Shown: positions 1-15,480 of the stretch, in pieces
Layout of the letters: the number at the start of each line of letters is the position of its first letter
How positions within the stretch are numbered: position 1 is the first letter of the stretch
Assembly: GCA_001820055.1 (NCBI GenBank)
Contig: MHOK01000024.1
Coordinates: 1 to 39,246 of the forward strand
Length of the DNA: 39,246 nucleotides
Source: Candidatus Spechtbacteria bacterium RIFCSPLOWO2_12_FULL_38_22
GTDB taxonomy: Bacteria > Patescibacteriota > Minisyncoccia > Spechtbacterales > 2-12-FULL-38-22
Direction of reading: 5' to 3'
Notes under the pieces: model-generated
What the model saw: only the letters and a program-made list of their open reading frames with translations
Told to the model about the DNA's origin: nothing
Database searches by the model: none
Program-made: the position numbers and the translations under genes

Positions 1-1
1 A

Positions 2-403
2 GAAGGAATTATAAATACTCCCAAAAAAAGGGCTCACTCTACACGCGATAGAAAGAAAGGAGAATCTAAAGAGGATAAACCTAAGGTTGTGATACAAAAC
101 GAACCCTCTATTAAAACTGACGATACAAAACAAGTGGAGGCAACTTCTCAAGAGGTAGATACTAAAGATGAAAAAGAGGAAGTAGTAGAAGATAAGCAGG
201 TAGTAGAAGATAAGCAGGTAGCAGAAGATAATAAAGAGGCGGTGGTAGAACTGACAGTAGAACAGGAGGTAGTCAATAAGGAGGTGAGCGAAAGCAAAAA
301 AGAAGAAGAAATTGAAAACAGCAGCCCTATCACGGACGGTATTCAAGAAAAAAAAGAACCCGAGGTCAGTATAGATAATATGGATAAGAACGCTGAAGAA
401 TAG
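2..403 (+). CDS. rpsP: Probable 30S ribosomal protein S16, C-terminal part with long charged tail (5' end outside window)
   Basis: The frame is open from the left edge, so the start lies outside the window; the stop is TAG. The first visible residues (EGIINTPKKRAHSTRDRKKG) fit the basic C-terminal end of bacterial S16, which binds 16S rRNA in the 30S subunit. The remaining roughly 110 residues are a low-complexity Glu/Lys/Val tail with a short tandem repeat (VVEDKQ, then VAEDNK) and no fold I recognise. The identification rests mainly on context: S16, KhpA and TrmD are neighbours in many bacteria, and khpA and trmD follow here. RimM, usually found between them, is missing. Acidic tails on ribosomal proteins occur in CPR genomes, but the S16 core itself is not visible, so this could be another basic protein with an acidic tail. 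Confidence 0.5.
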   Translation, partial: EGIINTPKKRAHSTRDRKKGESKEDKPKVVIQNEPSIKTDDTKQVEATSQEVDTKDEKEEVVEDKQVVEDKQVAEDNKEAVVELTVEQEVVNKEVSESKKEEEIENSSPITDGIQEKKEPEVSIDNMDKNAEE

Positions 404-445
404 AAGTGCTGATATGTTTTGTCGCATACTTTTATTGGATAATGC

Positions 446-474
446 TTGACAGAACCATAAAAGTAGAGTACAAT
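446..474 (+). promoter_or_regulatory. Sigma-70-type promoter for khpA
   Basis: TTGACA at 446-451, a 17-nt spacer and TACAAT at 469-474. It implies a leader of about 62 nt before the khpA ATG. No Shine-Dalgarno sequence lies just before the start. Confidence 0.75.
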
Positions 475-543
475 TACACAAAAGAAAAAGAAAGGTCGCC
501 TGTTTGTATATAATCTTGAATTACAATTAATCACGAAATCAGT

Positions 544-882
544 ATGGCTAAAACACAAGTAGATCAAGAATTTCTTACATTTCTTGTTCAATCATTAGTA
601 GACAACCCAGACGATGTAACAGTTGACCGAAAGGTTGACGAAATGGGCGTTCTACTTACACTTAAGGTTAATGCGGCTGACATGGCTCAAATTATTGGCC
701 GACAAGGCGCTACTGCTCATGCGATTCGTTCGCTTTTGAGAATTGTAGGGCTAAAGAATAACGCTAGGGTTAATTTGAAGATTGAAGAGCCAGAGGGATC
801 AACAAGAGTTCCAAGACCAGAGGGATCAACAAGAGTTCCAAGGAAGAGTGTTGATGTAGAAAGTGCTGTGGGCGACTTATAA
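544..882 (+). CDS. khpA: KH-domain RNA-binding protein KhpA (YlqC family)
   Basis: A 112-residue protein with a single KH fold. The N-terminal helix (FLTFLVQSLVDNPDDV) and the nucleic-acid-binding loop IIGRQGATAHAIRSLL around residues 50-65, with the GxxG signature GRQG, are typical of KhpA, which binds RNA and in other bacteria partners KhpB in cell-division and envelope control. The length is slightly above the usual 75-90 residues because the C-terminus contains a perfect 27-bp tandem duplication (790-843) giving two copies of PEGSTRVPR. The gene has its own consensus promoter at 446-474 and a strong terminator right after it, so it appears to be monocistronic. The ATG at 544 fits the domain start and is not preceded by a Shine-Dalgarno motif. 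Confidence 0.88.
   Translation: MAKTQVDQEFLTFLVQSLVDNPDDVTVDRKVDEMGVLLTLKVNAADMAQIIGRQGATAHAIRSLLRIVGLKNNARVNLKIEEPEGSTRVPRPEGSTRVPRKSVDVESAVGDL
790..843 (+). repeat. 27-bp tandem duplication inside khpA
   Basis: Two head-to-tail copies of a 27-bp unit, each encoding PEGSTRVPR in frame, lie downstream of the KH fold in a part of the protein unlikely to be structured. Confidence 0.9.
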
Positions 883-910
883 TATTTTACATTTCAACTT
901 ATAACAAAAA

Positions 911-942
911 GAAAACAATCCGCATTTATGCGGATTGTTTTC
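911..942 (+). terminator. Rho-independent terminator of khpA
   Basis: Perfect 14-bp arms (911-924 and 929-942) with a 4-nt loop. The arm ends in TTGTTTTC. It separates khpA from the trmD promoter only 8 bp downstream. Confidence 0.85.
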
Positions 943-949
943 TTGATAG

Positions 950-955
950 TATAAT
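950..955 (+). promoter_or_regulatory. -10 box of trmD, probable leaderless start
   Basis: A perfect TATAAT ends 6 nt before the trmD ATG at 962. Transcription should therefore begin at or next to the start codon. I see no good -35 box. Confidence 0.65.
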
Positions 956-961
956 AAATAT

Positions 962-1960
962 ATGTCCAATAAACCAAAGATTATTTTTGATGTTTTAACG
1001 ATATTTCCGGAAATGTTTCCATCTTATTTTGGTGGTTCTATTTTAGGCAAAGCCCAAGAGGCTGGATACATAAAAATAAACGTACATAATTTGCGTGATT
1101 TTGCCCAAGGCCTACCTGCGCCGCGGCCGGGTACCTATTTTGTGTATGCTATTTTGTGCGATAATGAAGATATTTATATTGGCCAAACAGGTAATTTAGA
1201 ATTAAGGTGGCGTAGACATATTGAGGGTACTGCGGCACAGCACACAAAAAAGCATAAGCCTAAGCAACTTATTCATTATGAAATATATGATAGTCGCGAA
1301 AAAGCTGTTGAAAGAGAAAAATGGTTAAAAACTGGATTTGGTCGAAAATGGCTAAAAAAAGAGTGGAAAGCCGGCCGGACGCGGCAGGCAGGCAAACATA
1401 AAATAACAGATGATATGGCATACGGAGGAATAAGCGGTATGGTTATGAAAGTAGAACCTATATATTATGCGGTGGAAGCTTTAAAAAAGAAGGTTAGAAC
1501 TCGTAAGCGTAGGATAATTTTACTTTCTGCTAAGGGTGAGCTATTAAAACAAAAAAAAGTTCGTGAACTTGGGGAATTGAAACACATAATTTTAATTGCT
1601 GGCCATTATAAGGGGGTAGATGAAAGAGTCGCAAAATATATCGCCGACGAGGAACTTTCGGTAGGTGAGTATGTTATTACCGGAGGCGAGGTTCCGGCAA
1701 TGCTTGTTGTAGATGCGGTAAGTCGTATGGTTTCTGGAGTAATAGGGAAAGACGAAAGTAAAAAGGGTGAATCGTTTTCCTCGGGGGTTAAATATGAGCA
1801 CGGAGTTTATACGCGGCCAGCCGAGTTTTCGCCTAAAAAGGGAAAAGCATGGAAGGTGCCGGATGTTTTACTCTCTGGACATCATAAAGAAATAGCTTCT
1901 TGGCGTGACGCTAATCGAGAGACCACGTCCATAAAAAAGCGCGGGAGGCATGGGGGGTAA
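962..1960 (+). CDS. trmD: tRNA (guanine-37-N1)-methyltransferase TrmD with an in-frame GIY-YIG nuclease domain
   Basis: TrmD methylates G37 next to the anticodon using S-adenosylmethionine. Residues 1-50 and 145-332 are TrmD: N-terminal IFPEMF, MAYGGISGM around 152-160, and the trefoil-knot SAM site with GHYKGVDERV (214-223) and VGEYVITGGEVPAM (234-247). Arg255 matches E. coli Arg154. The catalytic Asp169 of E. coli aligns without gaps to Glu270. Residues 51-144 are a complete GIY-YIG domain inserted between the positions matching E. coli residues 44 and 45; the frame is kept and there is no stop. The C-terminus ends about 35 residues early compared with E. coli. The gene may make a fusion enzyme, or function may be reduced; neither can be decided from sequence. 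The start at 962 fits both the family and the -10 box just upstream. Confidence 0.9.
   Translation: MSNKPKIIFDVLTIFPEMFPSYFGGSILGKAQEAGYIKINVHNLRDFAQGLPAPRPGTYFVYAILCDNEDIYIGQTGNLELRWRRHIEGTAAQHTKKHKPKQLIHYEIYDSREKAVEREKWLKTGFGRKWLKKEWKAGRTRQAGKHKITDDMAYGGISGMVMKVEPIYYAVEALKKKVRTRKRRIILLSAKGELLKQKKVRELGELKHIILIAGHYKGVDERVAKYIADEELSVGEYVITGGEVPAMLVVDAVSRMVSGVIGKDESKKGESFSSGVKYEHGVYTRPAEFSPKKGKAWKVPDVLLSGHHKEIASWRDANRETTSIKKRGRHGG
1110..1393 (+). mobile_element. GIY-YIG cassette with inverted ends inserted in trmD
   Basis: About 282 bp (94 codons) interrupts TrmD. Its ends are imperfect GC-rich inverted repeats of about 22-24 bp (1110-1131 and 1370-1393), and a GGC codon stands at both junctions, as a short target duplication would leave. 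Inside is a GIY-YIG fold: FVYAI for the first motif, IYIGQTGN for the second, Arg82 and His86, and the catalytic Glu119 in EREKWLK. All expected catalytic positions are present, so the domain could be an active endonuclease. The GC-rich ends differ in composition from trmD. There are no intein splicing motifs. Confidence 0.8.
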
Positions 1961-1971
1961 AAGAAATCTTA

Positions 1972-2059
1972 CAAAATAAAAACGCACATTTTGTATTTCA
2001 CTTTCGCTCGCTATGCTCGCTAGCGTTTGCAACGATATAAAATGTGAGTTTTTATTTTG
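1972..2059. repeat. Long hairpin repeat, copy 1
   Basis: Arms of about 26 bp (near perfect) around a 36-nt loop containing CTCGCTAGCGTTTGCAAC. The same loop and the inner arm recur at 35242-35343, but the outer arms differ between copies. It lies just after trmD and ends in a T-rich run, so it may also terminate trmD transcription. Confidence 0.8.
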
Positions 2060-2172
2060 CGAGTATCATATTTGCTTTTTATTTTGTTTATTGCTACGAT
2101 ACCTTTGATACAAATATAAATTGTAACTAATTTTGCATCACTTACGGTTACGATGTGATGGCGGTATTTAGT

Positions 2173-2201
2173 TTGACAATAAAAGTTGCAAGTATTATAT
2201 T
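2173..2201 (+). promoter_or_regulatory. Promoter of the 16S rRNA unit
   Basis: TTGACA at 2173-2178, a 17-nt spacer and TATATT at 2196-2201, about 280 bp upstream of mature 16S. A second TTGACA at 2218 has no well-spaced -10. Confidence 0.7.
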
Positions 2202-2331
2202 GTTATAGGCAAGTTATTTGACAATTTAATAGTAGATTAAAACAACTATTTGTCTTAGTAGCTAAGAGGCTACAGGTGATAGGTGCTTAGGAACCTAAAA
2301 CCTAGTAACCTAAAACCTAGTTTATGACATT

Positions 2332-2349
2332 TAATAGTTGTTTCGGATA
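2332..2349 (+). other. 5' arm of precursor-16S processing stalk
   Basis: These 18 nt are complementary to 4595-4612 with one G-U pair. The pairing encloses the whole 16S gene and is the expected site for RNase III-type processing. Confidence 0.8.
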
Positions 2350-2483
2350 AGTTTTTGTTTTAAACAAAAACACCGAGTGCTTTAATATGTATATTTATAT
2401 TAGAGTGTTCTGGTTCTATTTTTTAGAGTTTATACATTTAATTATGTAGAAGCGAATCATTTAATGAGTCGCAAGTCAACTCT

Positions 2484-4432
<1,949 letters not shown>

Positions 4433-4594
4433 GTTTTATTTTTCTTTTTATCTTGCCAAAACATTATGTGGCGGCGGATATGAATTTTAAAGCGATGGTC
4501 GGTCAGATATCGAGATACGGAATTTCTATCTCGATCTGCAAGCGATGACATATCACGCTTAATATATGTCTGCTTATAGGAAAGCTATTTTAGA

Positions 4595-4612
4595 TATCCG
4601 AAGCAACTATTA
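4595..4612 (+). other. 3' arm of precursor-16S processing stalk
   Basis: Complementary to 2332-2349. Its position before the terminator at 4641 shows that the 16S precursor is closed without the 23S. Confidence 0.8.
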
Positions 4613-4640
4613 GGTGTTTATCTACTAAAAATCTACTATT

Positions 4641-4674
4641 AACTAAAAATCTCCCTATAGGGAGATTTTTAGTT
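4641..4674. terminator. Terminator of the 16S unit
   Basis: A perfect 34-nt palindrome (17-bp arms, no spacer between them) with a T-rich 3' arm. It lies 29 nt after the processing stalk. Confidence 0.8.
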
Positions 4675-4711
4675 AATGCAGTATTCAAAACGACAAGCAG
4701 GGTAAGTGTTG

Positions 4712-4717
4712 TATAAT
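4712..4717 (+). promoter_or_regulatory. -10 box upstream of the phosphatase gene
   Basis: TATAAT about 51 bp before the ATG at 4769. No clear -35 box. The leader contains TAGGAG ending 9-10 nt before the ATG, one of few Shine-Dalgarno-like sequences in the window. Confidence 0.5.
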
Positions 4718-4768
4718 AAGCAAAAATATGGCATTATAGCGTAAGTTCTGTTCTAGGAGCATAATGCG

Positions 4769-5860
4769 ATGAAAAGAAAGGTTTTGCCATTCTTGCTTTC
4801 TATTTCTGTTTTAGCAGGAAGTTTTATAAACCAATCTTCATACGCGCAAGATAGTGTCGCAAACGACACCACAAGCTCATTTACAATTGTCATTTTACCA
4901 GATACTCAATACTATTCCGAAAGTTATCCAGAAATATTTATGTCGCAGACAAGATGGATAAAAGAATATGCGCAAGAACTAAATATAAAGATTGTTCTGC
5001 ACGAGGGAGATATAACAAATACAAATACAGCTTCAGAATGGATTGTTGCTCAAAGAAGCATGAGAGTTTTAGATGGTACCATTCCCTATGTAATGTCCGT
5101 AGGGAATCACGATATGGGAAAAAACGGAAGAGCAGACACCAGAGATACTCGTTTGTTTAATAGATATTTTCCCCAGTCAAGATACGAGAGTTCAGAAAAT
5201 TTCGGTGGGGTTTTTGAAGAAGGTAAGCTAGACAACGCTTTTTATTTATTTACCGCAGGGAATAAAAAATGGTTAGTGCTAACTTTAGAATTTAGACCGC
5301 GGAATAATGTCCTTGTGTGGGCAAATTCTGTTGTAGAAAAATACAGTGATAGGTTAGTGATAGTGGTTACCCATAGCTACCTGAATGAGAAAAACGTAAG
5401 GACATCAAATTCGGGCCTGTCAGGGTCTCAATATGGAATTATAAACGATTCGCAGGGAGCAAATAGCGGTCAGGATATGTGGAAAAAATTTGTAAGTATT
5501 CATGAAAATATTTTATTAGTTTTTAATGGTCATCACGGAGGTGATGGAACAGGAAGGCTTGTAAGCAGAGGTGAAAATGGAAATCTTGTTTATCAAGTCT
5601 TTGCTAATTATCAAGGAATGAAAAACGGAGGAAATGGATTTTTACGAATAATAAAGATAGATACGCTAAGCGGGGAGATTCGCGCTAGAACCTACTCTCC
5701 TTATCTAGATTTATATCTAAGAGATTCAAAAAACCAATTTAAGTTTAAGTATGTGCGTTTTTTGAAAGAAGCTAGTGAGTGTGTGTATTATGAGAGTAAC
5801 TCCCATTCTTTAATTTATAATATGATTTTTTTTAATTGCCTGGGTCCGGTTGCGTTTTAA
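4769..5860 (+). CDS. Secreted calcineurin-like metallophosphoesterase
   Basis: A 363-residue protein with a signal peptide: basic MKRK, a hydrophobic stretch, then SSYAQ around residue 26 as a likely signal peptidase I site. The binuclear-metal motifs of calcineurin-like phosphoesterases follow in order: LPDTQYY (about 44-50), HEGDITN (about 78-84), VGNHD (about 111-115), VTHSY (about 200-204) and NGHHGGD (about 252-258). The enzyme should hydrolyse a phosphoester outside the cytoplasm; the substrate cannot be told. The last 35 residues after KFKYVRFLKE are unrelated to the fold and look degenerate. It sits between 16S and tRNA-Ile, where no protein gene is expected, has its own -10 box and terminator, and so is probably a single-gene insertion into the old rRNA spacer. 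Confidence 0.85.
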   Translation: MKRKVLPFLLSISVLAGSFINQSSYAQDSVANDTTSSFTIVILPDTQYYSESYPEIFMSQTRWIKEYAQELNIKIVLHEGDITNTNTASEWIVAQRSMRVLDGTIPYVMSVGNHDMGKNGRADTRDTRLFNRYFPQSRYESSENFGGVFEEGKLDNAFYLFTAGNKKWLVLTLEFRPRNNVLVWANSVVEKYSDRLVIVVTHSYLNEKNVRTSNSGLSGSQYGIINDSQGANSGQDMWKKFVSIHENILLVFNGHHGGDGTGRLVSRGENGNLVYQVFANYQGMKNGGNGFLRIIKIDTLSGEIRARTYSPYLDLYLRDSKNQFKFKYVRFLKEASECVYYESNSHSLIYNMIFFNCLGPVAF

Positions 5861-5885
5861 AATCCTAAGGTTTCTTAGGATTTTT
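5861..5885 (+). terminator. Terminator of the phosphatase gene
   Basis: AATCCTAAG (5861-5869) pairs with CTTAGGATT (5874-5882), followed by T residues. It starts directly after the stop codon. Confidence 0.8.
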
Positions 5886-5938
5886 ATTTACTGACCCTTT
5901 TATGATTTATTAAAGTACTTAATTAAGTGTTAAAATTA

Positions 5939-5967
5939 TTGCAAGCGTGATTAAATTTTAGTATAGT
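5939..5967 (+). promoter_or_regulatory. Promoter of tRNA-Ile
   Basis: TTGCAA at 5939-5944, a 17-nt spacer and TATAGT at 5962-5967. The mature tRNA begins 15 nt after the -10 box, so the tRNA is independent of 16S transcription. Confidence 0.6.
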
Positions 5968-5981
5968 GTATCTTATGATGC

Positions 5982-6056
5982 GCGCGTGTAGCTCAGTTCG
6001 GTTAGAGCACGCCTCTGATAAGGGCGAGGTCCTAGGTTCGAATCCTAGCACGCGCA
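5982..6056 (+). tRNA. tRNA-Ile (GAU anticodon)
   Basis: Full cloverleaf: 7-bp acceptor stem (GCGCGTG with CACGCGC), D arm GCTCAGTTCGGTTAGAGC, anticodon loop CTGATAA with anticodon GAT, and T arm CTAGGTTCGAATCCTAG. Discriminator base A. CCA is not encoded. It is one of the two tRNAs normally found between 16S and 23S. Confidence 0.95.
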
Positions 6057-6125
6057 CTGATTTTTGTCCAAATCTTTGATTTGGTTACAAAAATCAGTGC
6101 CAGCCGTAGCGTAGCGAAGGCTGGC
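6055..6125. repeat. Two nested palindromes directly after tRNA-Ile
   Basis: First hairpin 6055-6099: outer arms of 13 bp (CACTGATTTTTGT and its complement) and an inner CCAAATC/GATTTGG hairpin. Its first two bases are the last bases of tRNA-Ile. Second hairpin 6099-6125: GCCAGCC/GGCTGGC around a loop with GTAGCG twice. A related sequence with GCGAAGGCTGG lies inside ssb at 31956-31990. Together they form the 5' flank of the GIY-YIG ORF and could terminate tRNA transcription. Confidence 0.75.
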
Positions 6126-6134
6126 TAAACAACT

Positions 6135-6380
6135 ATGATATATTATGTGTATGTATTGAAAAGTGAACGTGACGGCAAAAGATATATCGGTATTACTAAA
6201 AATGTGAACGTCAGATTGAAGGATCATAATAGGGGCAAGGTAAGGTCAACATACAAACGGCAACCATTAAAACTTCTATATCAGGAAGAATATGCGACAA
6301 CGGGGGAAGCTAAAAATCGTGAGCGATATTTAAAGTCAGGAGCAGGCAGAGAATGGTTAGATCGTAGAAGTATTAAGTAG
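6135..6380 (+). CDS. Stand-alone GIY-YIG nuclease (UPF0213/YhbQ-like), next to tRNA-Ile
   Basis: An 81-residue protein that is just one GIY-YIG domain: YYVYVL near residue 3 for the first motif, RYIGITKN for the second, then Arg and His in VRLKDHN and the catalytic Glu in NRERYLKSG. This matches the small GIY-YIG family that is abundant in CPR genomes; such proteins have a nuclease fold but mostly no known target. The ATG at 6135 opens directly into the first beta strand; there is no Shine-Dalgarno motif. It is bracketed by palindromes (6055-6125 and 6381-6428) and lies 78 bp after tRNA-Ile. The flanks suggest a mobile cassette rather than a resident gene. Confidence 0.85.
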   Translation: MIYYVYVLKSERDGKRYIGITKNVNVRLKDHNRGKVRSTYKRQPLKLLYQEEYATTGEAKNRERYLKSGAGREWLDRRSIK

Positions 6381-6428
6381 TCCGCCTACATTTCATTACG
6401 GCGGACAAATTTTGCAAGGCGAAATTTG
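6381..6428. repeat. Paired palindromes after the first GIY-YIG ORF
   Basis: TCCGCC (6381-6386) pairs with GGCGGA (6400-6405), then CAAATTT (6406-6412) with AAATTTG (6422-6428). The second ends on the first base of the truncated tRNA-Ala copy. Confidence 0.65.
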
Positions 6429-6462
6429 GGCCCGTAGCTCATCTGGTAGAGCGCCTCACTTG
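6428..6462 (+). pseudogene. 5' half of a broken tRNA-Ala
   Basis: These 35 bases equal 6770-6804 of the intact tRNA-Ala exactly. The copy stops after anticodon bases 34-35 (TG of TGC), where the cassette at 6463 begins. Its other half restarts with base 36 at 6858. Confidence 0.9.
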
Positions 6463-6485
6463 TCCCGATTTCTACAAATTTTGAA

Positions 6486-6731
6486 ATGTTTTATTTTTAT
6501 ATTCTAAAATCTAAGAAATTTGGTACATATTATATCGGTATTTCTGGTAATATTGAAGAACGTTGGAAAGCCCACAACAATGGTTTGGTTAAGTCTACTA
6601 AATATAAAAGACCCTGGTCAGTAGTTCACAAAGAAGGTTTCTCAACATTGAAACAAGCAAGAAAAAGAGAATTATATATGAAATCTTTAAAGAGTAGGAA
6701 AGCGATTGAGGGCTTAATAAAACATATTTAA
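6486..6731 (+). CDS. Stand-alone GIY-YIG nuclease inside the tRNA-Ala cassette
   Basis: An 81-residue single-domain GIY-YIG protein: FYFYIL at the N-terminus, YYIGISGN for the second motif, Arg and His in ERWKAHN, and Glu in KRELYMKSL. It is clearly related to the protein at 6135-6380 and to the TrmD insert but not identical, so these are older relatives rather than fresh copies. The start codon lies 6 bp after the left inverted repeat and the stop directly before the right one, so the ORF fills the loop of a long hairpin. No promoter or Shine-Dalgarno motif is clear; it could be read from upstream tRNA transcription. A role as the homing nuclease that cut the tRNA-Ala gene is a hypothesis. 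Confidence 0.85.
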   Translation: MFYFYILKSKKFGTYYIGISGNIEERWKAHNNGLVKSTKYKRPWSVVHKEGFSTLKQARKRELYMKSLKSRKAIEGLIKHI

Positions 6732-6769
6732 AATTTGTTTAGAAATCGAGGATTCTCGATAACAAAGGT

Positions 6770-6842
6770 GGGCCCGTAGCTCATCTGGTAGAGCGCCTCA
6801 CTTGCACTGAGGAGGTGGCAGGTTCGAGTCCTGTCGGGTCCA
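6770..6842 (+). tRNA. tRNA-Ala (UGC anticodon)
   Basis: Complete cloverleaf: acceptor GGGCCCG with CGGGTCC (one G-U), anticodon stem CCTCA/TGAGG, loop CTTGCAC with anticodon TGC, and T arm CAGGTTCGAGTCCTG. Discriminator A. CCA is not encoded in full. Flanking 12-bp inverted repeats extend the acceptor stem to 19 nearly perfect pairs, which is unusual for a bacterial tRNA precursor. Confidence 0.95.
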
Positions 6843-6857
6843 CCTTTGTTATCGGAA

Positions 6858-6878
6858 CACTGAGGAGGTGGCAGGTTC
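6858..6878 (+). pseudogene. Fragment of the 3' half of the broken tRNA-Ala
   Basis: These 21 bases are identical to 6805-6825 of the intact tRNA (anticodon base 36 to the start of the T arm). The fragment begins exactly where the 5' half at 6428-6462 stops, then is cut off by another palindrome starting TTCCGAT. Confidence 0.85.
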
Positions 6879-7034
6879 TTCCGATTTTGTCTCCGCAAGG
6901 CGGAGTAACAAAATCGAGAATCCTCAATATTTCATCAAAATCAAAGATTTTGGAAATATCGGGAGAGTCTTGTTGTGTCCAACAAAATAAACGTTTCAAT
7001 CCGCCAGCTGGCGGATTGAAACGTTTATTTTGTT
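6876..7034. repeat. Stack of palindromes downstream of tRNA-Ala
   Basis: Three structures: CCGATTTTGTCTCCGC against GGCGGAGTAACAAAATCG (about 6881-6914); ATATTTCATCAAAATC against GATTTTGGAAATAT (about 6927-6960); and a perfect 54-bp palindrome without a loop at 6981-7034, centred on CCAGCTGG. The last is followed after 15 bp by the tag -10 box. No gene is seen here. Confidence 0.8.
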
Positions 7035-7049
7035 TAGTAGTATTGATGG

Positions 7050-7055
7050 TATAAT
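7050..7055 (+). promoter_or_regulatory. -10 box of tag, probable leaderless start
   Basis: A perfect TATAAT ends 7 nt before the ATG at 7063, which is also where homology to Tag begins. This decides the start: an ATG at 7057 would lie upstream of the expected transcription start. Confidence 0.65.
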
Positions 7056-7062
7056 TATGCAT

Positions 7063-7647
7063 ATGGAAAAAATTAAAAAACGTTGTCCGTGGGTTCCAAA
7101 GGATAACTTACTATACGAAAAATACCACGATATTGAATGGGGTGTTCCAACACACAACGATAGAAAGCTGTTTGAATTTTTGGTCCTTGAAAGTGCCCAA
7201 GCGGGTCTTTCGTGGGAAACAATATTAAAAAAGAGAAAAGGTTACAAAAAACTATTTGCTAATTTTAATCCTCAAAAAGTTGTAGTTTTTACGAAACGGG
7301 ATGTTACAAGATTGCTTAACCTTACAACATCAGAAATTATAAGAAATCGTTCAAAAATAGAAGCAACGATAAATAATGCAAAAAAATTTTTGGAAGTTCA
7401 AAAAGAATTCGGTACTTTTTCAAAATATCAATGGGGTTTTGTGGGTGGCAAGCAAATTGTAAACAAAGTACGCAGAATACAAGATTATAAAGTTTCAACA
7501 TCGCAGTCAGACGCGATGGCAAAGGATATGAAAAAACGCGGATTTAAATTTTTAGGTTCAACCACGCTTTATGCTCATATGCAGGCCGTTGGCATGGTGA
7601 ACGATCACGCGGTTGATTGTTTTAGGTATAGGGAAGTTATGAAGTAA
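7063..7647 (+). CDS. tag: DNA-3-methyladenine glycosylase I
   Basis: A 194-residue protein close in length to E. coli Tag (187). It removes 3-methyladenine from alkylated DNA as the first step of base excision repair. Family marks run along the protein: KKRCPW with the first zinc cysteine, YHDIEWGVP with the zinc histidine, LESAQAGLSWETILKKR with the catalytic Glu, KIEATINNAK, KKRGFKFLGSTTLYAHMQAVG, and NDHAVDC giving the last zinc His and Cys. The start at 7063 is set by the TATAAT 7 nt upstream. It stands alone after a palindrome stack and before the hom promoter; nothing suggests an operon. Confidence 0.93.
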   Translation: MEKIKKRCPWVPKDNLLYEKYHDIEWGVPTHNDRKLFEFLVLESAQAGLSWETILKKRKGYKKLFANFNPQKVVVFTKRDVTRLLNLTTSEIIRNRSKIEATINNAKKFLEVQKEFGTFSKYQWGFVGGKQIVNKVRRIQDYKVSTSQSDAMAKDMKKRGFKFLGSTTLYAHMQAVGMVNDHAVDCFRYREVMK

Positions 7648-7696
7648 ATTGTTAAACTTGCGATAGGTCGCCATTTAAAAAAGCATAATAGAGTGC

Positions 7697-7702
7697 TATA
7701 CT
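7697..7702 (+). promoter_or_regulatory. Extended -10 promoter of hom
   Basis: TGCTATACT (extended -10 TGn plus TATACT), then a leader of about 22 nt in which AGGA stands about 5 nt before the ATG. Confidence 0.55.
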
Positions 7703-7730
7703 TTTTTTAGTTAATAAAAGCAGGAAAAAA

Positions 7731-9008
7731 ATGACAAAAAAATTACAAGTAGCGTTGGTCGGGTGTGGAACAGTGGGAAGCGCGGTAGCTAAGTTTTTGT
7801 TAGCTCACAGACTCGATTTGGTTGTTACAAGCGATGTGGATATCAAGTTATCTAAAATTTATACACGCAACCCAAACGGAAGAAAGTCGCAAGAACTTTA
7901 TACCACACACCCAGAGTTATTTGTGCAGGATTTTGACGAAATTTTACAGGATTCACAAATAGACATCGTCATAGAAACCATAGGAGGCACGGACTTTGCA
8001 AGAGAAGTTGTTGTAGGCGCTATAAAAAGCGATAAAGATGTGGTGACGGCAAACAAAGCGTTGCTTGCAATTTACGGAGAGGAGATATTTGCTTTACTAA
8101 GACAATACGGCAGGCAATTAGGATACGAAGCCGCAGTTGCGGGGTCCATACCTATAATCTCTACTCTAAGAAACCATTTGGTTGGAAGAAGAGTTAAGGC
8201 GATTGCCGGAATTCTAAATGGTACTTGTAATTACATATTAAGCAGAATGCAGGAAAGCGGATGTTCTTTTGGGGATGCTCTTAAAGACGCTCAAGAGTTA
8301 GGGTATGCGGAAGCAGATCCTAACGAAGATATTAGCGGTGCTGATACAAGAAATAAAATTTCTATTTTGGCACATACCGCATTCGGGTTTTACTTTAATC
8401 CGGCAGATATATATACGCAGGGCATAGAAGAAATTATTCCAGAAGATTTTAAATATGCAAAAGATAAGTTTAACTCTACTATTAAACTTATAGCGTACTG
8501 TACAAACGAAAGAGTTATATATGTTTGTCCCATGCTTGTTCCCAGGAATAGCTTTTTGGCAAATATATCAGACAATAGAAATGGGATTAGTATATATGGA
8601 GAGTATTTTAATGAAATTGGTTTAACTGGCCCAGGTTCAGGAGGAGAGCAAACTGCGGTAAGCATTATTGCAGATTTAGTAAGTATTGCCAGTGGTACTC
8701 TAAAAAGTAAACACTTGACTACGTTTGAACCACATAGTTTCGAAGAGCTATATTTTACGCATACTTTAAGATTTGTTATAAAAGATCAGGTGGGAATTCT
8801 AAGAGATATTACTGGGATATTAGCGCAGGAAGGTATTAGTGTTAGAGCTGTAGAGCAAAATGAATATACAGAAGATGACAAGGATAGTTTGCCATTTTTT
8901 ATTACGTTGGAACCCGCGCAGGAAAAGAATGTGCAAAAGGCCGTACATAAAATTAATCAGCTTCCCTATATGGTGCGTCCAGTAGTTATATTTCGTATAT
9001 TAAAATAG
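7731..9008 (+). CDS. hom: Homoserine dehydrogenase with C-terminal ACT domain
   Basis: A 425-residue enzyme, normal length for the monofunctional Hom. It reduces aspartate semialdehyde to homoserine with NAD(P)H on the way to threonine and methionine. The N-terminus has the nucleotide-binding VGCGTVGSAVA (residues 10-20). VTANKALLA, AGSIPII, ILNGTCNYIL and the catalytic block LGYAEADPNEDISGADTRNK follow, then GPGSGGEQTA closing the dehydrogenase fold. The last 80 residues (from LRFVIKDQVGILRDITGIL) are an ACT regulatory domain, usually a site for threonine feedback. No other threonine-pathway gene is in the window, which is notable for a CPR genome, where amino-acid pathways are usually lacking. 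It has its own promoter and terminator. Confidence 0.95.
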   Translation: MTKKLQVALVGCGTVGSAVAKFLLAHRLDLVVTSDVDIKLSKIYTRNPNGRKSQELYTTHPELFVQDFDEILQDSQIDIVIETIGGTDFAREVVVGAIKSDKDVVTANKALLAIYGEEIFALLRQYGRQLGYEAAVAGSIPIISTLRNHLVGRRVKAIAGILNGTCNYILSRMQESGCSFGDALKDAQELGYAEADPNEDISGADTRNKISILAHTAFGFYFNPADIYTQGIEEIIPEDFKYAKDKFNSTIKLIAYCTNERVIYVCPMLVPRNSFLANISDNRNGISIYGEYFNEIGLTGPGSGGEQTAVSIIADLVSIASGTLKSKHLTTFEPHSFEELYFTHTLRFVIKDQVGILRDITGILAQEGISVRAVEQNEYTEDDKDSLPFFITLEPAQEKNVQKAVHKINQLPYMVRPVVIFRILK

Positions 9009-9017
9009 ATTAAATTT

Positions 9018-9052
9018 AATACCATCCGTATTTTATCGGATGGTATTTATTT
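9018..9052 (+). terminator. Terminator of hom
   Basis: AATACCATCCG (9018-9028) pairs with CGGATGGTATT (9037-9047), followed by a T-rich stretch. Confidence 0.85.
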
Positions 9053-9080
9053 TAAACAATTCTGATTAACAAAGTTGTAC

Positions 9081-9118
9081 AAAACAAAAACATGTGCCTA
9101 AGCACATGTTTTTGTTTT
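9081..9118. terminator. Terminator between hom and the RRM gene
   Basis: Perfect 17-bp arms (9081-9097 and 9102-9118) with a 4-nt loop. Both arms end in A/T tracts, so it can work on either strand and should end the minus-strand RRM transcript. Confidence 0.85.
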
Positions 9119-9139
9119 GATTTGAATTACGAAAAATAA

Positions 9140-9400
9140 TTATTCTCGCTCTTCTCTTGGTCTTGCCTCATTAACAACAAGTGTTCTACCGCCAAACTCA
9201 GTTCCATTTAGAGTTTCAACGGCTTTTTTTGCTTCATCGTCGCTACTCATTTCTACGAAACCAAAACCTCGGCTTCGGCCACTGAACTTGTCAGTGATGA
9301 TTGCAGCTGATTCCACAGAACCCGCAGAACTAAAATGTTCTCTTAGGTCGTCTTCTGTTGAAGTATAAGGAATTCCACCAACATATAATTTTTTACCCAC
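9140..9400 (-). CDS. RRM-type RNA-binding protein
   Basis: An 86-residue protein made of one RNA-recognition motif. RNP2 is LYVGGI (5-10) and RNP1 is RGFGFVEM (about 44-51), with the aromatic residues that stack on RNA bases in place. The short tail RPREERE is charged. Single-RRM proteins of this sort in bacteria (well known from cyanobacteria) bind single-stranded RNA and are often cold-induced. The start is a GTG at 9400. The leader is about 135 nt if the minus-strand promoter at 9542-9570 is used, with a hairpin only about 10 nt before the start, which could be a site of temperature or self-regulation. It is the only minus-strand gene between positions 1 and 31445. Confidence 0.92.
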   Translation of the reverse strand: MGKKLYVGGIPYTSTEDDLREHFSSAGSVESAAIITDKFSGRSRGFGFVEMSSDDEAKKAVETLNGTEFGGRTLVVNEARPREERE

Positions 9401-9410
9401 AATGATATAT

Positions 9411-9443
9411 AAGTATCTTCAAAAAACATTTCTCAAGATACTT
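9411..9443 (-). promoter_or_regulatory. Hairpin in the leader of the RRM gene
   Basis: AAGTATCTT (9411-9419) pairs with AAGATACTT (9435-9443) around a 15-nt loop. On the minus strand it ends about 10 nt before the GTG start. It could gate translation; it lacks a T run and is not a terminator. Confidence 0.5.
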
Positions 9444-9541
9444 ATAATTAAACTTATATCCATAAACTCTTATTTTCGACTCGCACTTATTTTTAAAGTT
9501 GATAACCTACAATGGGTTATGAAATAGAATTTACGCTATTC

Positions 9542-9570
9542 TTTATACTATATATCCAAATAAATTGCAA
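9542..9570 (-). promoter_or_regulatory. Minus-strand promoter for the RRM gene
   Basis: Read on the minus strand: TTGCAA (9570-9565), a 17-nt spacer and TATAAA (9547-9542). The rest of 9401-9747 holds no gene: the leader hairpin, this promoter, and on the plus strand an AT-rich region before the membrane-protein gene. Confidence 0.55.
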
Positions 9571-9747
9571 TAGCAAAGCAGAAAAATAGGCAAATATTTA
9601 AGTATTTTCTTTTCCACAAGGAAAATTTGCAGATTACTGATATAATAATAATAGAGAAAAGTACTCAAAAAGGTCGTTTTTGATTTAAGAATTGACCATA
9701 AGGTCTTTAAATTAAGAAAAATCTTAATTTTTTTACTATAAACGTTT

Positions 9748-10431
9748 ATGTTAGTACAAGGTTGGATAGAAATATTCGTTTTTTCCTTGCAAGATTTGTG
9801 GCTACGTTTTGTGAATTTTTTCCCAACAATTTTTGGAGCATTTTTAGTGTTCCTATTAGGTTGGATCGTGGCAGTTTTTCTTGGAAGGGGAGTTACAAAA
9901 CTGTTTCAAACACTTCAAGTTGACAAACTATTTGATCAACTAGGTGTTATGAAACAAGCTCATAAAGCTGGGCTTGAATGGGAAGCTTCAGTACTTTTTG
10001 GAGCTTTAGTCCGATGGTTTTTTATCATCGTGACATTCCTTGCCACAGTTGACATTTTAGAATTAGATCAACTTTCGGGATATATTTCAAGTATATTACT
10101 GTATGTGCCAAACATTATTATTGCGGCCTTGATATTAGTCGTGGCGGCAGTTTTGGCTTCATTTCTTGAAAGACTAGTAAAAGCAAGCATGAAAGCTACA
10201 GAAGTTGGTCCCGTAAAATTTGTGGGTGCCACAGTGCGTTGGAGTGTTTGGGGATTTGCATTTATTGCAGTCCTTAACCAACTGGGTATAGCTTCTGCAT
10301 TGGTACAAGTTCTATTTATGGGATTTGTTGCCATGTTGGCACTTGCTGGAGGTCTGGCTTTTGGACTTGGCGGACAGGGAGTTGCAAAAGAAGTTTGGGA
10401 AGCTGTGAGAGATGATGTAAAAGGTAAGTAA
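9748..10431 (+). CDS. Membrane protein of the MscS / CmpX (conserved TM-helix) type
   Basis: A 227-residue integral membrane protein with about five hydrophobic segments: around residues 24-48 (FFPTIFGAFLVFLLGWIVAV), 85-105, 113-140, 165-185 and 190-212. The pattern of a TM helix followed by GRGVTKLFQ and the final AGGLAFGLGGQGVAKEVWE match the conserved-TM-helix family related to small mechanosensitive channels (CmpX in Pseudomonas). The Gly/Ala-rich last helix resembles the MscS pore helix. The soluble beta domain of true MscS is missing, so channel activity is inferred. A TATAAA/TACTAT box at 9735-9742 lies 5-7 nt before the ATG, suggesting a leaderless mRNA. Confidence 0.8.
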   Translation: MLVQGWIEIFVFSLQDLWLRFVNFFPTIFGAFLVFLLGWIVAVFLGRGVTKLFQTLQVDKLFDQLGVMKQAHKAGLEWEASVLFGALVRWFFIIVTFLATVDILELDQLSGYISSILLYVPNIIIAALILVVAAVLASFLERLVKASMKATEVGPVKFVGATVRWSVWGFAFIAVLNQLGIASALVQVLFMGFVAMLALAGGLAFGLGGQGVAKEVWEAVRDDVKGK

Positions 10432-10450
10432 AACAAACAATACTAATTTG

Positions 10451-10490
10451 AAATCTAAAAATCCTTCGTACGCGAGGGATTTTTAGATTT
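10451..10490 (+). terminator. Terminator of the MscS-like gene
   Basis: AAATCTAAAAATCC (10451-10464) pairs with GGATTTTTAGATTT (10477-10490). The loop is GC-rich and the end T-rich. Confidence 0.8.
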
Positions 10491-10560
10491 TAAGAAAAAC
10501 TGTTGAGCCACTACATTGAGCTTGAAATTCGCCTAAGTGTATGAGATGCTAAAAATAAAC

Positions 10561-12681
10561 ATGATTGAAAGTATAACTTTTTTCAAAAAAAATAGAAAAG
10601 ATAAAAAAGACAAACATCCACCTAATCCTGAAGGTGATTTAACCAGTGAGCAGAAAGGGGCTAGGGATATTATCGTATTTTATCTCCACAATGGAGACAT
10701 GGACAATGCTCTAAAAACTAAAGAGAAGTTTAACCTCCCGGATGAAATAGTCCACGAAGTTGTAAAAAATAGAATTATATCCCTTCTCCGCGATGGATAT
10801 ATAAATGAAGCTCTAAAAATCAAAGAGGCGTTTAACCCCCCAGACGAGATGTTGTCTTCTCCTGAAGTTTACGAAGCAGCCAAAGATGGAATTATATACT
10901 TTCTCAGGAGAGAAAACATAGACGACGCCCTCAGAGTTAAAGAGAAGTTTAACCTCCCAGATGAAATAGTCCACGAAGCGACTAAAAATGCAATTATATA
11001 CCTTCTCCTTAACGGAGGCCTAGATATCGTTCCAGAAATCAAAGAGGCGTTTAACTTCCCAGACGAGATGTTGTCTTCTCCCGAAGTTTACGCAAGGGTC
11101 AAAGATGAAATTATATCCCTTCTCCGCGTGGGGTACATAGACATCGTTTCAAAAATCAAAGAAGCGCTTAATTTCTCAGACGAAATGTTGTCTTCTCCTG
11201 AAGTTTACGAAGCAGCCAAAGATGGAATTATGCACTCTCTCCGCAACGGGTACACAGACATTGCTTTAAAAATCAAAGAAGCGTTTAATCTCTCAGACAA
11301 AATGTTTTACTCGCCCGAGATTAAAGAAGCGTTTCTGATGGGGTTTATGTTTTGCCTAGCAAGAAAAAATGACGTTGAAAAAATTTTTGAAATTAAGGAA
11401 AAATTTGGTATTTCCGATGAGGCGCTTTTTCCACCCACGCATAGAAGGGTAGTGATAAAACAGTTATTACAAAGACAAGCTTATCAGCAACTTCGTAAAA
11501 TTACGGAGATACTGGGGATAACGGATGGAGAGATACAGGGAATAGACGCGGAGTTATTAAAACTTGATGTAAGCGCGAAAGACCCATATGCAGAGCACGA
11601 ATGGCTTTTTAACGGGGAAAAGATAAAGAGGTCTGTTTTATTAGCCAAGGTATTAAATGGAGAGTTGGGTATTGAGCAAGTTGTTTTGGATTTTGAAATT
11701 GCTGAAAGCGATTTGCCTCGTATCAAAGAAGCATTAAGAATGATCAAAGAGGTTGTATACAGAAAATACTCTGTTTTTGAAAGAGAAATAACAAACTCCC
11801 CGCATATATCAGAAATAGAAAAACATTCTCTATTGAGCGCAGGCAATGGCCGTAGGACCGCTCTATTAAATACCCTTTTTGAATTAACTTCTCGATTATT
11901 TATTCAAACTGGGGAGTTCCGTGATTTTAGTACCAATTTGTCTGAGAATAATTTTGCAAATATGCTTAATACTACCGAATCATGGTTCTCGGATATTATC
12001 AAGCGTGGGATAGAAGCGTTTTTAAAAGTTTACGAAATTGATATCCCTTTGTACGATCGGCTATATGATGAATTTGATTTAGCTAGAGGAATGGGAAGTC
12101 ACCCGATGGAGGTATATTTAGGTAGGGACGGGATTTATGCTTGGCTTGGCAGGAGAGTGCAAGATATTGCCCGAAGGAGAAGAATGGGTCCGCAAGCAAG
12201 AAAAAGGATAAAAGAAAGCGGTAAAGTGCTTGAGATAAAGCCACGATATTTAGTTTATCCTCGTTATATGAGAGATCGTCTTGGTTACATTGCCAAGAGA
12301 GATTATCTAGCGCAAGAGAGAATTACTCCTGACCAAGATCCATTTTTCTTTGATACCGGATATACAGGTACTATCCCAGAGGATATTATGAAGGTTATGG
12401 GATTTACCAGCGAAGAAATAGAAAGAAGGATTAAATTATTGTCAGCGACAAAAGAGAGTAGGCGAATAAGGGGAATAGGGGATAGCGCGAGAAAAGATAT
12501 AGTGGAGTATATAGAAGGAAATGCCCAAAGCGAGAACAGCGCGGAAGGATTAATCATAGATCCAGGCACGGGTAAAATAAAGCACATAGCCCAACCCGCT
12601 AGTCCAAAAGATCAATTTACATTTCAAATGGTACGCCAAGCTATAGTTAGGCATTACTGGTTTGAAGAGATGAATAAGTAA
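10561..12681 (+). CDS. Helical-repeat protein A with a conserved C-terminal domain, unknown function
   Basis: A protein of about 706 residues with no signal peptide or membrane segment. The first 300 residues hold seven units of 34 or 39 residues (the long form adds SSPEV). A typical unit reads AAKDGIIYFLRRENIDDALRVKEKFNLPDE, two helices with an LPDE/FPDE turn, resembling TPR/PPR-type alpha-solenoids. Neighbouring units are very similar in DNA, which points to recent tandem copying. A linker follows, then a C-terminal domain of about 230 residues shared with the protein at 18350: VYLGRDGIYAW, VYPRYMRD, FFDTGYTGTIPEDIMKVMGF, and RQAIVRHYWF at the end. I do not recognise this domain; RDG and DTGxTG motifs recall HAD-like fold proteins, but that is weak. 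The start at 10561 is chosen because it aligns with the paralogue; a GTG at 10537 is possible. Confidence 0.8.
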   Translation: MIESITFFKKNRKDKKDKHPPNPEGDLTSEQKGARDIIVFYLHNGDMDNALKTKEKFNLPDEIVHEVVKNRIISLLRDGYINEALKIKEAFNPPDEMLSSPEVYEAAKDGIIYFLRRENIDDALRVKEKFNLPDEIVHEATKNAIIYLLLNGGLDIVPEIKEAFNFPDEMLSSPEVYARVKDEIISLLRVGYIDIVSKIKEALNFSDEMLSSPEVYEAAKDGIMHSLRNGYTDIALKIKEAFNLSDKMFYSPEIKEAFLMGFMFCLARKNDVEKIFEIKEKFGISDEALFPPTHRRVVIKQLLQRQAYQQLRKITEILGITDGEIQGIDAELLKLDVSAKDPYAEHEWLFNGEKIKRSVLLAKVLNGELGIEQVVLDFEIAESDLPRIKEALRMIKEVVYRKYSVFEREITNSPHISEIEKHSLLSAGNGRRTALLNTLFELTSRLFIQTGEFRDFSTNLSENNFANMLNTTESWFSDIIKRGIEAFLKVYEIDIPLYDRLYDEFDLARGMGSHPMEVYLGRDGIYAWLGRRVQDIARRRRMGPQARKRIKESGKVLEIKPRYLVYPRYMRDRLGYIAKRDYLAQERITPDQDPFFFDTGYTGTIPEDIMKVMGFTSEEIERRIKLLSATKESRRIRGIGDSARKDIVEYIEGNAQSENSAEGLIIDPGTGKIKHIAQPASPKDQFTFQMVRQAIVRHYWFEEMNK

Positions 12682-12784
12682 ATTTTGTTTGTCTGTGAAG
12701 TTTATTTTAGAGATTATATCGGCTTAATAATACAATATACTTTTTGTATATTACTAACGCGAGTAACTCACAAGTAATCCACAC

Positions 12785-12814
12785 TTGACAAGTTGTATGT
12801 ATTTGGAATAAAAT
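12785..12814 (+). promoter_or_regulatory. Promoter of the 23S-5S unit
   Basis: TTGACA at 12785-12790 and TAAAAT at 12809-12814 (18-nt spacer). This shows that 23S is transcribed independently of 16S. Confidence 0.75.
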
Positions 12815-12893
12815 GAGTAACATGCGAAATAGTGAATTTTTAAGAAATAAAACAAGCGGAATCTAGCCAGCCATTTTTTTATGCGCTGATATG

Positions 12894-12919
12894 AAATCGC
12901 TTGGTAAGCGATTTTTTTT
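12894..12919 (+). terminator. Intrinsic terminator inside the 23S leader (possible attenuator)
   Basis: AAATCGCTT (12894-12902), loop GGT, AAGCGATTT (12906-12914), then a run of T. It lies about 80 nt after the promoter and 260 nt before 23S, so rRNA synthesis must pass it. Confidence 0.7.
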
Positions 12920-13104
12920 GTTCATTCCTCACTGCGTTCGGTGCAAGATAGTGCGTAGTTTGTATTTGGTAGTTCGTAGAATATTTAGTTTGCTTAAGAT
13001 AGTTTTTCTACTGACTACCCACTACTCACTACCAACTAGCTTCGAGCGTAGTGAGGAGAGAAAAAAATTGCACTTTAACAATTGAATAATGTTATCTACA
13101 AAAT

Positions 13105-13125
13105 AAGAACATTTTGTAATTCCGC
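13105..13125 (+). other. 5' arm of precursor-23S processing stalk
   Basis: 21 nt complementary to 16764-16784 with one mismatch. It closes the 23S precursor on its own. Confidence 0.85.
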
Positions 13126-13409
13126 GGTTTTGTCCGAAGGTATAACCATAGTGGTATGGATTTACCTTTGGATTTATCAACAATATTAAAACTCAAGGGC
13201 ATATGGAGGATGCCTTGACACCAAAAGGGGAAGAAGGACGTGGTGTAGCTGCGAAAAGCCTCGGGTAGGTGCGTAGCAACCTTTGATCCGGGGATATCCG
13301 AATGAGGAAACTCGATGCGGCAAAACCGCATCACCCTGTCGTAAGACATGGACCGTACCCGCTGAAGTGAAACATCTTAGTAAGCGGAGGAAAAATATAC
13401 CGTAAATAT

Positions 13410-13507
13410 AGTGTGCTTTGCACATTGTACGTCGTTGATTGCAAATAGCTTGTCATTTTTATGATTTGCTATATTTGCGATATGCGATTTGCTGTGCATA
13501 GCACACT
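13410..13507 (+). other. Insertion in 23S near E. coli position 210
   Basis: An extra stem AGTGTGC/GCACACT encloses about 84 nt absent from E. coli between GAGGAAAA and ATTCCC. It resembles the intervening sequences that RNase III removes in other bacteria. Confidence 0.65.
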
Positions 13508-13787
13508 GGTATTCCCTTAGTAGCGGCGAGCGAAAAGGGATTAGGACCCCTTAGGGGGTCCGTAGCCCAAAATCTGCGAATTGTTTACAATACGCAGGTG
13601 GTAGTAGGACTATTTTTTCGCGAGCGAAATTTTAGAAAAATAACTCTGGAAAGTGTAACCAAAGAGGGTAAAAGTCCCGTATTTAAAAAAATTGAACTCG
13701 TTAAATAGTATCCTGAGTAACTCGAGACACGACCACCTCGAGTGAATCATCCCGAACTATCGGGAAAGGCTAAATACTTTTGGTGAT

Positions 13788-13824
<37 letters not shown>

Positions 13825-13882
13825 CAGCCCGGTTAGGGCGGTGAAATAGAACCTGAAACCATATGCCTACAAGGAACAGGAG

Positions 13883-13963
13883 CCCCTCACTTGGTTTTAT
13901 GAATTATTTAATTATAGTTTTTTTTAAAGCTAAAATTATTTGTTCGTAGATCCAAGTGAGGGG
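13883..13963 (+). other. Intervening sequence in 23S helix 25
   Basis: A perfect 12-bp stem (CCCCTCACTTGG and its complement at 13952-13963) closes an AT-rich loop of about 57 nt. Helix 25 is a classical site of excised intervening sequences. Confidence 0.75.
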
Positions 13964-14621
13964 TGACTGTGTGCCTTTTGTAGAATGATCCAACGAGTTA
14001 TTTTATACTGCAAACTAAGTCCTGATAAGGATGTAGTTACAGGGAAACCGAGTGTTAATAGCGCGAACATGAGTTTTTTTGATAGGAAAAATCCTATCAA
14101 AAAAATTCAAATGTAGTATGAAATAGACCCGAAGCCAGGCGATCTACCCATGACCAGGGTGAACCCCGAGTAATATCGGGGGGAGGCCCGAACCCACTTC
14201 CGTTGCAATAGAAGGGGATGAGTCGTGGGTCGCAGTAAAAAGCTAATCGAGCCTGGTAATAGCTGGTTCTCTCCGAAATAGCTTTAGGGCTAGCTTTCGG
14301 TTATAGATTTATGAAGGTAGAGCACTAATTGGTCTATCAAGGCTTATGCTGAGATTGATCAGATAAACTCCGAATTTCATAAATTGTTTCCGAAAAGTTA
14401 GAATATGGGGGCTAAGCTTCATATTCAAAAGGGAAACAGCCCAAATCGCAGTCTAAGGTCCCCAAATGCAAGCTCAGTGGGAAAGGATGTGAAATTTCTT
14501 GAACAGCTAGGAGGTTGGCTTAGAAGCAGCCATCCTTTAAAAAGTGCGTAACAGCTTACTAGTCGAGAGATTTTGTGCCTAAAATTTAACGGGGCTTAAG
14601 CTTGCTACCGAAGACGCGGAT

Positions 14622-14726
14622 GCCACCGCATCTCATTTTGTTTGATATGAAATTTAAAATTTCTAATTTTCAATTTAAAAATTGTTTAAAAATTTTTTCA
14701 TATCGAGCACAGCGAGATGTGGTGGC
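14622..14726 (+). other. Intervening sequence in 23S helix 45
   Basis: GCCACCGCATCTC (14622-14634) pairs with GAGATGTGGTGGC (14714-14726, one G-U). The 79 nt inside are AT-rich with a second stem (GATATGAAA against TTTTCATATC). Helix 45 is another classical intervening-sequence site. Confidence 0.75.

Positions 14727-15429: not shown

Positions 15430-15480
<51 letters not shown>

Follow-up and report, generated by a model that had tools for sequence, protein, structure and literature searches.

How does a complete nuclease domain come to lie in the middle of a tRNA methyltransferase, and does it serve the enzyme there or simply travel with it? The question arises in the window studied here, the whole stretch of 39,246 nt that makes up contig C24 of a 623,063-base genome (24 contigs, 93.67% complete) from a tiny uncultured Patescibacteria-like bacterium. 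Alignment with uninserted relatives shows that the trmD reading frame is interrupted between ...NLRDFAQG and KHKITDDMAYGG, with a GGC codon repeated at both borders of the insert (1109-1111 and 1391-1393). This is the place that a preliminary description of the DNA puts between the residues matching E. coli TrmD 44 and 45. In the chimaeric frame, Pfam recognizes TrmD (PF01746) in residues 144-327 (profile 23-194, E 6.8e-39) and GIY-YIG (PF01541) in residues 59-126 (E 2.8e-14). Alignment and Pfam thus bear out a 94-residue in-frame GIY-YIG insert in TrmD, as first described. Both TrmD halves also remain recognizable, as the chimaera scores above the cut-offs of the two NCBIfam TrmD equivalogs, NF000648 (234.8 bits vs 220) and TIGR00088 (222 bits vs 195). 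A second complete trmD was looked for across the whole genome with PF01746, which returned this frame and no other. The host gene is therefore present in a single copy, and TrmD is presumably essential in this organism. As a separate observation, the KH protein encoded directly upstream carries an in-frame direct duplication (window 786-843) in which PEGSTRVPR is encoded twice.

Table 1. Features of the chimaeric trmD gene and of the nearby tRNA genes in the window.
Feature	Position	Strand	Remarks
KhpA-type KH protein gene	544..882	+	directly upstream of trmD; PF13083
TrmD-GIY-YIG-TrmD chimaeric ORF	962..1960	+	332 aa, stop included
TrmD N-terminal part, codons 1-50	962..1111	+	from alignment with relatives; last codon GGC
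Left GC-rich arm (inverted repeat)	1109..1131	+	
In-frame insert, 282 nt = 94 codons	1112..1393	+	from alignment with uninserted relatives
GIY-YIG catalytic domain, UPF0213/YazA (Slx1-like) type	1136..1342	+	residues invariant in 17 relatives kept
Right GC-rich arm (inverted repeat)	1369..1393	-	
TrmD C-terminal part	1394..1957	+	anticodon-binding loop, knot, C-terminal domain
tRNA-Ile(GAT)	5982..6057	+	followed by free-standing GIY-YIG ORF
Free-standing GIY-YIG ORF, same kind	6138..6338	+	3' of tRNA-Ile
Second free-standing GIY-YIG ORF	6486..6698	+	between 5' tRNA-Ala fragment (broken in anticodon) and whole tRNA-Ala
tRNA-Ala(TGC)	6770..6844	+	

The insert is absent from the trmD genes of all six other genomes of the order and from all 80 other TrmD loci in our genome collection. 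Each of the six order relatives has one TrmD gene, in frames of 230-278 aa whose profile matches start at position 2 or 3. In five of them the insert site is empty in the alignment, and the sixth (G006) was counted as lacking the insert because a frame of 239 aa leaves no room for 94 extra codons. Among the 80 collection loci the longest match is at most 744 nt, and two whose matches start past the insert position (L165 and L228) are ordinary TrmD on inspection. The alignment with close relatives, which the preliminary description had proposed as a search for an uninserted allele, thus finds the empty allele to be the rule. Other in-frame additions to TrmD occur in the order. One relative (G004, locus L024) has a 24-residue insert at another place, because of which its TrmD profile match falls into two pieces, and a same-order TrmD (L023, 1933-2031) carries a short in-frame palindrome (ILGRSGRPRER) in another loop.

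The cargo belongs to a defined branch of the GIY-YIG nucleases. A profile of 17 rows, the insert first, matches the UPF0213 structures 1ywl (E 5.8e-18) and 1zg2 (E 9.1e-18) and, next, SLX1 (E 2.5e-5). These are its best structural relatives by profile, but they do not lie inside another protein. Twelve columns are invariant across the 17 rows and all 12 are present in the insert, in keeping with the earlier remark that the catalytic residues are complete; judged by these residues, the nuclease looks catalytically competent. Against TIGR01453, the group I intron GIY-YIG endonuclease family, the insert scores 24.4 bits, below the cut-off of 56.05. No in-frame ATG is present near the start of the insert (a GTG is), so the nuclease is probably made only within TrmD. 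Two other origins were considered. Inteins begin with Cys, Ser or Ala and end in His-Asn, followed by Cys, Ser or Thr. The insert runs from LPAPRPG to RTRQAG, with KHK following; the splicing residues are missing, and a direct reading of its ends upholds the view that it is not an intein. A viral origin was rejected as well, as two single-protein scans of viral contigs yielded no relative, and tblastn of the insert against 50,697 phage records gave no match.

The ends of the insert are unusual in composition. Just 12 of the 39,226 20-mers in the window reach at least 85% GC and all of them lie at these two ends, while the cargo between the arms has 34% GC. Between the left-end GCCTACCTGCGCCGCGGCCGG and the right end, pairing involves 2 mismatches and a gap of 2 nt. 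When both arms are shuffled with their composition kept, the alignment score is reached 170 times in 20000 and the duplex energy 103 times in 5000, so the complementarity of the arms is real but modest. The duplex energy is -34.0; window sequence, a control not matched for GC, averages -6.2 (sd 3.1, minimum -26.7, n=3000), and with the same scoring the arms' alignment score is also reached at 27 of 7786 window positions. The GC-rich inverted repeats that had been described are therefore present at both ends, as in mobile elements with inverted terminal repeats, with striking GC blocks and a pairing of modest significance. One further candidate, CCTGCCTGCCGCGT as a genome-wide motif, was discarded: it has nine sites in the genome, of which the one in trmD alone is exact, and the others are parts of longer repeats of another kind.

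The insertion had been presented as an isolated case, which it is not, as it is a member of a widespread nuclease group. GIY-YIG matches occur in 270 of the 285 genomes of the class, and relatives of the insert at E 1e-6 or better in 216. Among the matches listed from the 285 genomes there is no close copy of the insert at another site, the best identity outside its own gene being 49%, for a genome that belongs to the same family; the closest GIY-YIG elsewhere in its own genome is at most 43% identical. We studied 69 loci (60 listed relatives, eight from the same genome and L087), chosen by similarity and not at random. Most relatives of the insert are free-standing and near tRNA genes, not inside proteins: a tRNA gene lies within 150 nt in 43 of the 69 loci, the nearest being on the same strand in 42 of these 43, whereas in pseudo-sites placed in the same stretches the mean fraction was 0.059 and the largest 0.130. 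Several loci show a 5' tRNA fragment, then the ORF, then a whole tRNA. Some of the fragments are broken in the anticodon (L099, L116 and L008). Since breaks also occur towards the D-arm or further on, and a partial tRNA copy is lacking in many of the 69 loci, the anticodon is not the sole break point. The window itself contains such an arrangement (Table 1), in a stretch with a metallophosphatase-like ORF (by eye), tRNA-Ile, two GIY-YIG ORFs, tRNA-Ala and several protein ORFs. Elsewhere in the window, long ORFs at 10537-12681 and 18350-20206 have ALKIKE-type repeats and a similar C-terminal part, and by eye they appear to be paralogues.

Entry into a protein gene is nonetheless not confined to trmD. 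Among 150 matches listed, three lie in open frames longer than 175 aa (336, the gene studied here; 491; and 888). The 888-aa frame, from G047, is a type I restriction R subunit (HsdR; EcoAI family, 784 bits vs cut-off 550) with an internal in-frame GIY-YIG domain. It is flanked by the arms TTCGACAAGCTCA and TGAGCCTGTCGAA, which are inverted and palindromic and whose score is reached by 7 of 20000 shuffles. The 491-aa frame (G167) is an N-terminal fusion of GIY-YIG to a gene that we label pilin-like, and a C-terminal GIY-YIG fusion (L243) was the sole further real fusion among the other long frames inspected. In our tree a group of six rows, the HsdR insert among them, is the sister of the TrmD insert (94/82, not starred); this tree holds 66 of the 69 rows (those with stops or fewer than 55 residues were dropped) and a small number of columns, and the bootstrap had not converged.

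Palindromic DNA carried in frame within protein genes is familiar from the Rickettsia palindromic elements, which are not known to have a nuclease inside. In-frame GIY-YIG invasion is also already known. According to the available part of Dunin-Horkawicz et al. 2006 (PMC1564403), the HsdR protein MCA0838 of Methylococcus capsulatus contains an in-frame Slx1-like GIY-YIG domain that an 80%-identical homologue lacks, and the authors considered the insertion recent and perhaps unimportant. MCA0838 shares with the trmD chimaera the in-frame Slx1-like insertion inside a protein. However, its host is a restriction subunit and not a normally essential single-copy tRNA enzyme, and that part of the account reports neither palindromic ends nor a tRNA-gene neighbourhood. 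Likewise, mobE of phage Aeh1, one of several homing endonuclease genes that split their hosts, lies inside an essential-type gene, nrdA, whose product is active, but MobE is an HNH nuclease and its host is split into two polypeptides, whereas the trmD chimaera is one continuous chain with a GIY-YIG domain (PMC2988022, in the sections available). No TrmD-GIY-YIG fusion was found in the literature treating trmD and GIY-YIG together, as far as the accessible portions of it extend, and the available text of PMC11187310, on TrmD fusions, does not mention GIY. Relative to the literature found, what is new is TrmD as the host, palindromic ends at both borders, and kin of the insert that lie near tRNA genes and palindromes.

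What would the insertion do to the enzyme? The columns invariant over 47 TrmD rows are retained in the chimaera. An AlphaFold model (mb8d6601fe5f9; mean pLDDT 83.6, pTM 0.72, TrmD parts mostly above 80) predicts that the insert folds as a domain, and it aligns with tRNA-bound H. influenzae TrmD (4yvi_B) over 225 residues (Z 24.2, rmsd 3.3). The modelling that had been suggested as a check on the knot and active site thus predicts a TrmD fold that is kept, and the chimaera would presumably still methylate G37. Confidence is low at residues 144-146, the far border of the insert, and 154-156, in the anticodon loop just after it. In the H. influenzae enzyme, Asp50 reads G36, Gly59 holds the A38 phosphate and Arg154 is catalytic (PMC5372744, available part). 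By our own mapping these correspond to D150, G159 and R255, all in columns invariant over the 47 rows. The position of the catalytic Asp169 is occupied by Glu (E270), as in the uninserted order relatives shown. Because the insert directly precedes the loop with D150 and G159, the nuclease should sit a few residues from the anticodon pocket.

This position makes it tempting to speculate that the nuclease works with TrmD at the anticodon, by cleaving tRNA, by quality control of unmethylated tRNA or by targeting tRNA genes. The placement directly before the loop that would contact G36 and the A38 phosphate (PMC5372744, as far as available) fits such a role, as does the proximity of 43 of the 69 relatives to a tRNA gene (within 150 nt). 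Moreover, a fusion between GIY-YIG and a TrmH-like SPOUT methyltransferase is on record, as are fusions and shared operons with COG4123 methyltransferases (PMC1564403, in the part available), and yazA overlaps the gene for the tRNA1(Val) A37-N6 methyltransferase in Bacillus subtilis and Radiobacillus records. Because of these fusions and overlaps, a tie between the nuclease and tRNA methyltransferases has to be taken seriously as a rival. However, the fusion occurs in one genome, being absent from the six order relatives and the 80 other TrmD loci, the palindromic arms point to insertion, and the same nuclease branch entered HsdR, which has no tRNA role. In addition, the model is of low confidence at the very loop concerned (144-146, 154-156). 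We consider a working partnership at the anticodon unlikely.

A second alternative is that the insert is removed at the RNA level, either as an intron of unknown type or through RNase III cutting the paired arms without ligation, which would leave TrmD in two pieces. The arms could pair in the mRNA, and there are precedents in rRNA: the available part of PMC11270868 describes CPR rRNA insertions that are removed from transcripts, with GIY-YIG-containing ones that fit neither the group I nor the group II intron type, and RNase III cleavage known for some rRNA intervening sequences. These rRNA insertions come from the same bacterial radiation and, like the trmD insert, are not introns of known kind. 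They occupy sites of low sequence conservation, but their host is rRNA and not protein, and that part of the source mentions no terminal repeats at their ends. Against removal, all 94 codons, both arms included, are open in frame, which would be needless if they were cut out of the transcript, and no Rfam intron family reaches its gathering threshold (window 1-16000; L006), so that a group I or group II intron was rejected. Removal from the RNA seems to us very improbable. Hardly any weight falls on an assembly error or strain mixture, with the insert missing from the living genome, or on a decaying trmD pseudogene: the assembly is fragmented (24 contigs, 93.67% complete), but the frame is kept at both junctions, TrmD scores above its cut-off with conserved columns kept, and a repeat-driven misjoin within the genome is unlikely because the junctions are open in frame and the insert shares no more than 43% identity with the nearest other GIY-YIG of its genome.

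Of the two readings that the preliminary description offered, it is the tolerated selfish insertion that is better supported, by the empty alleles, the foldable TrmD, the palindromic arms and the HsdR case, and not the nuclease that serves with TrmD. We consider it likely that a palindrome-ended nuclease gene of UPF0213/YazA type inserted in frame into the sole trmD and is carried there as a tolerated selfish passenger. In this scenario a small gene with palindromic ends would have entered the only trmD, and the fusion would be read through in frame, since the 282-nt insert is open throughout, arms included, lengthening a TrmD loop by 94 residues. TrmD would keep its fold and methylate G37 as before, with the nuclease, itself possibly active, as a passenger. 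The nuclease's kin in this class, which sit beside tRNA genes and in palindrome-bordered sites, fit this scenario. As to the route, the nuclease may have helped the element to insert at or into a palindrome that can form a hairpin. Such a palindrome could already have been present in trmD as a short in-frame element, like the one found elsewhere in the gene of a relative, or the palindromic arms could have arrived with the element. Several findings speak against the selfish insertion: the complementarity of the arms is imperfect and exceeds composition only modestly, most relatives are free-standing near tRNA genes, and the association of GIY-YIG domains with RNA-type methyltransferases (PMC1564403, available part) also fits a functional role. 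Nor is movement of the trmD insert itself seen, since no copy exceeds 49% protein identity among the matches listed, and with no clear ATG of its own the insert looks stranded rather than active.

The repeats around the kin of the insert count in favour of the selfish insertion and also invite a broader speculation. Inverted repeats that join the two flanks and score at least 28 are present in 17 of the 69 loci; the share is 1.3% among 1667 mispaired flanks and 0.8% among 1380 positions elsewhere. Since its arms pair only across a gap, the trmD locus does not appear among the 22 top-scoring rows. Perfect hairpins with GC-rich stems are found within 250 nt in 12 of the 69 loci, vs a mean of 0.75 and a maximum of 2 in 20 sets of pseudo-sites, and repeats of the TTCGACAAGCTCA type occur seven times near GIY-YIG ORFs and not at all in 324 kb far from them. 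The palindrome CCTGCCTGCCGGCAGGCAGG, with up to 3 mismatches, has 11 sites in the genome of the trmD chimaera (reversed control, 0), two of them within 35 nt of GIY-YIG ORFs. By eye, CCTGCCTGCCGGCAGGCAGG was also noticed in the D-arm of tRNA-like sequences (L251, L252) that ARAGORN did not call. The hairpins near GIY-YIG ORFs might instead control translation, by analogy with phage T4 endonucleases (PMC2988022, in the sections available).

A visible example for a reading of these ORFs as hairpin-targeting mobile elements is a family of about 285 nt with shared ends, of which ten GIY-YIG copies lie at nine loci, in different genes and genomes (L060 twice, L071, L132, L143, L145, L147, L148, L150 and L157). 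Their cores, a left AAATAATTTTAAATTT-like and a right CAAATCTTA, are 257-273 nt apart. In the ends ACCCTGTTAAATAA...TTATTTAACAGGGT the outer arms pair and change together (GTTAA/TTAAC, GTGAA/TTCAC, GTCAA/TTGAC), with the stem's fourth base mismatched in several copies. By eye, one copy (L145) interrupts a gene for a four-helix-bundle-type protein and another (L157) comes after a gene start of which about 70 nt are duplicated. The family forms one side of a branch in the tree (89/89). A relative without the shared ends (L141) lies, again by eye, inside a 16S rRNA gene. We could speculate, and only tentatively, that the small UPF0213-type GIY-YIG ORFs of the class move autonomously, as elements of about 285 nt with self-pairing ends. 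They would insert at the tips of hairpins (tRNA arms, rRNA stems, coding palindromes) and also mobilize the short palindromic repeats found within genes, and the trmD chimaera would have arisen when such an element happened to enter an essential gene in frame.

Should the chimaera prove active, a knotted and essential tRNA enzyme would be able to accommodate an entire nuclease domain beside its anticodon pocket, and the gene would be a natural test of how selfish DNA survives in essential genes without splicing. Moreover, the wider pattern, in which tRNA genes, palindromes and Slx1-like nucleases occur together, suggests what might move short palindromic repeats and how YazA nucleases might be connected with tRNA position 37, and both ideas are testable.
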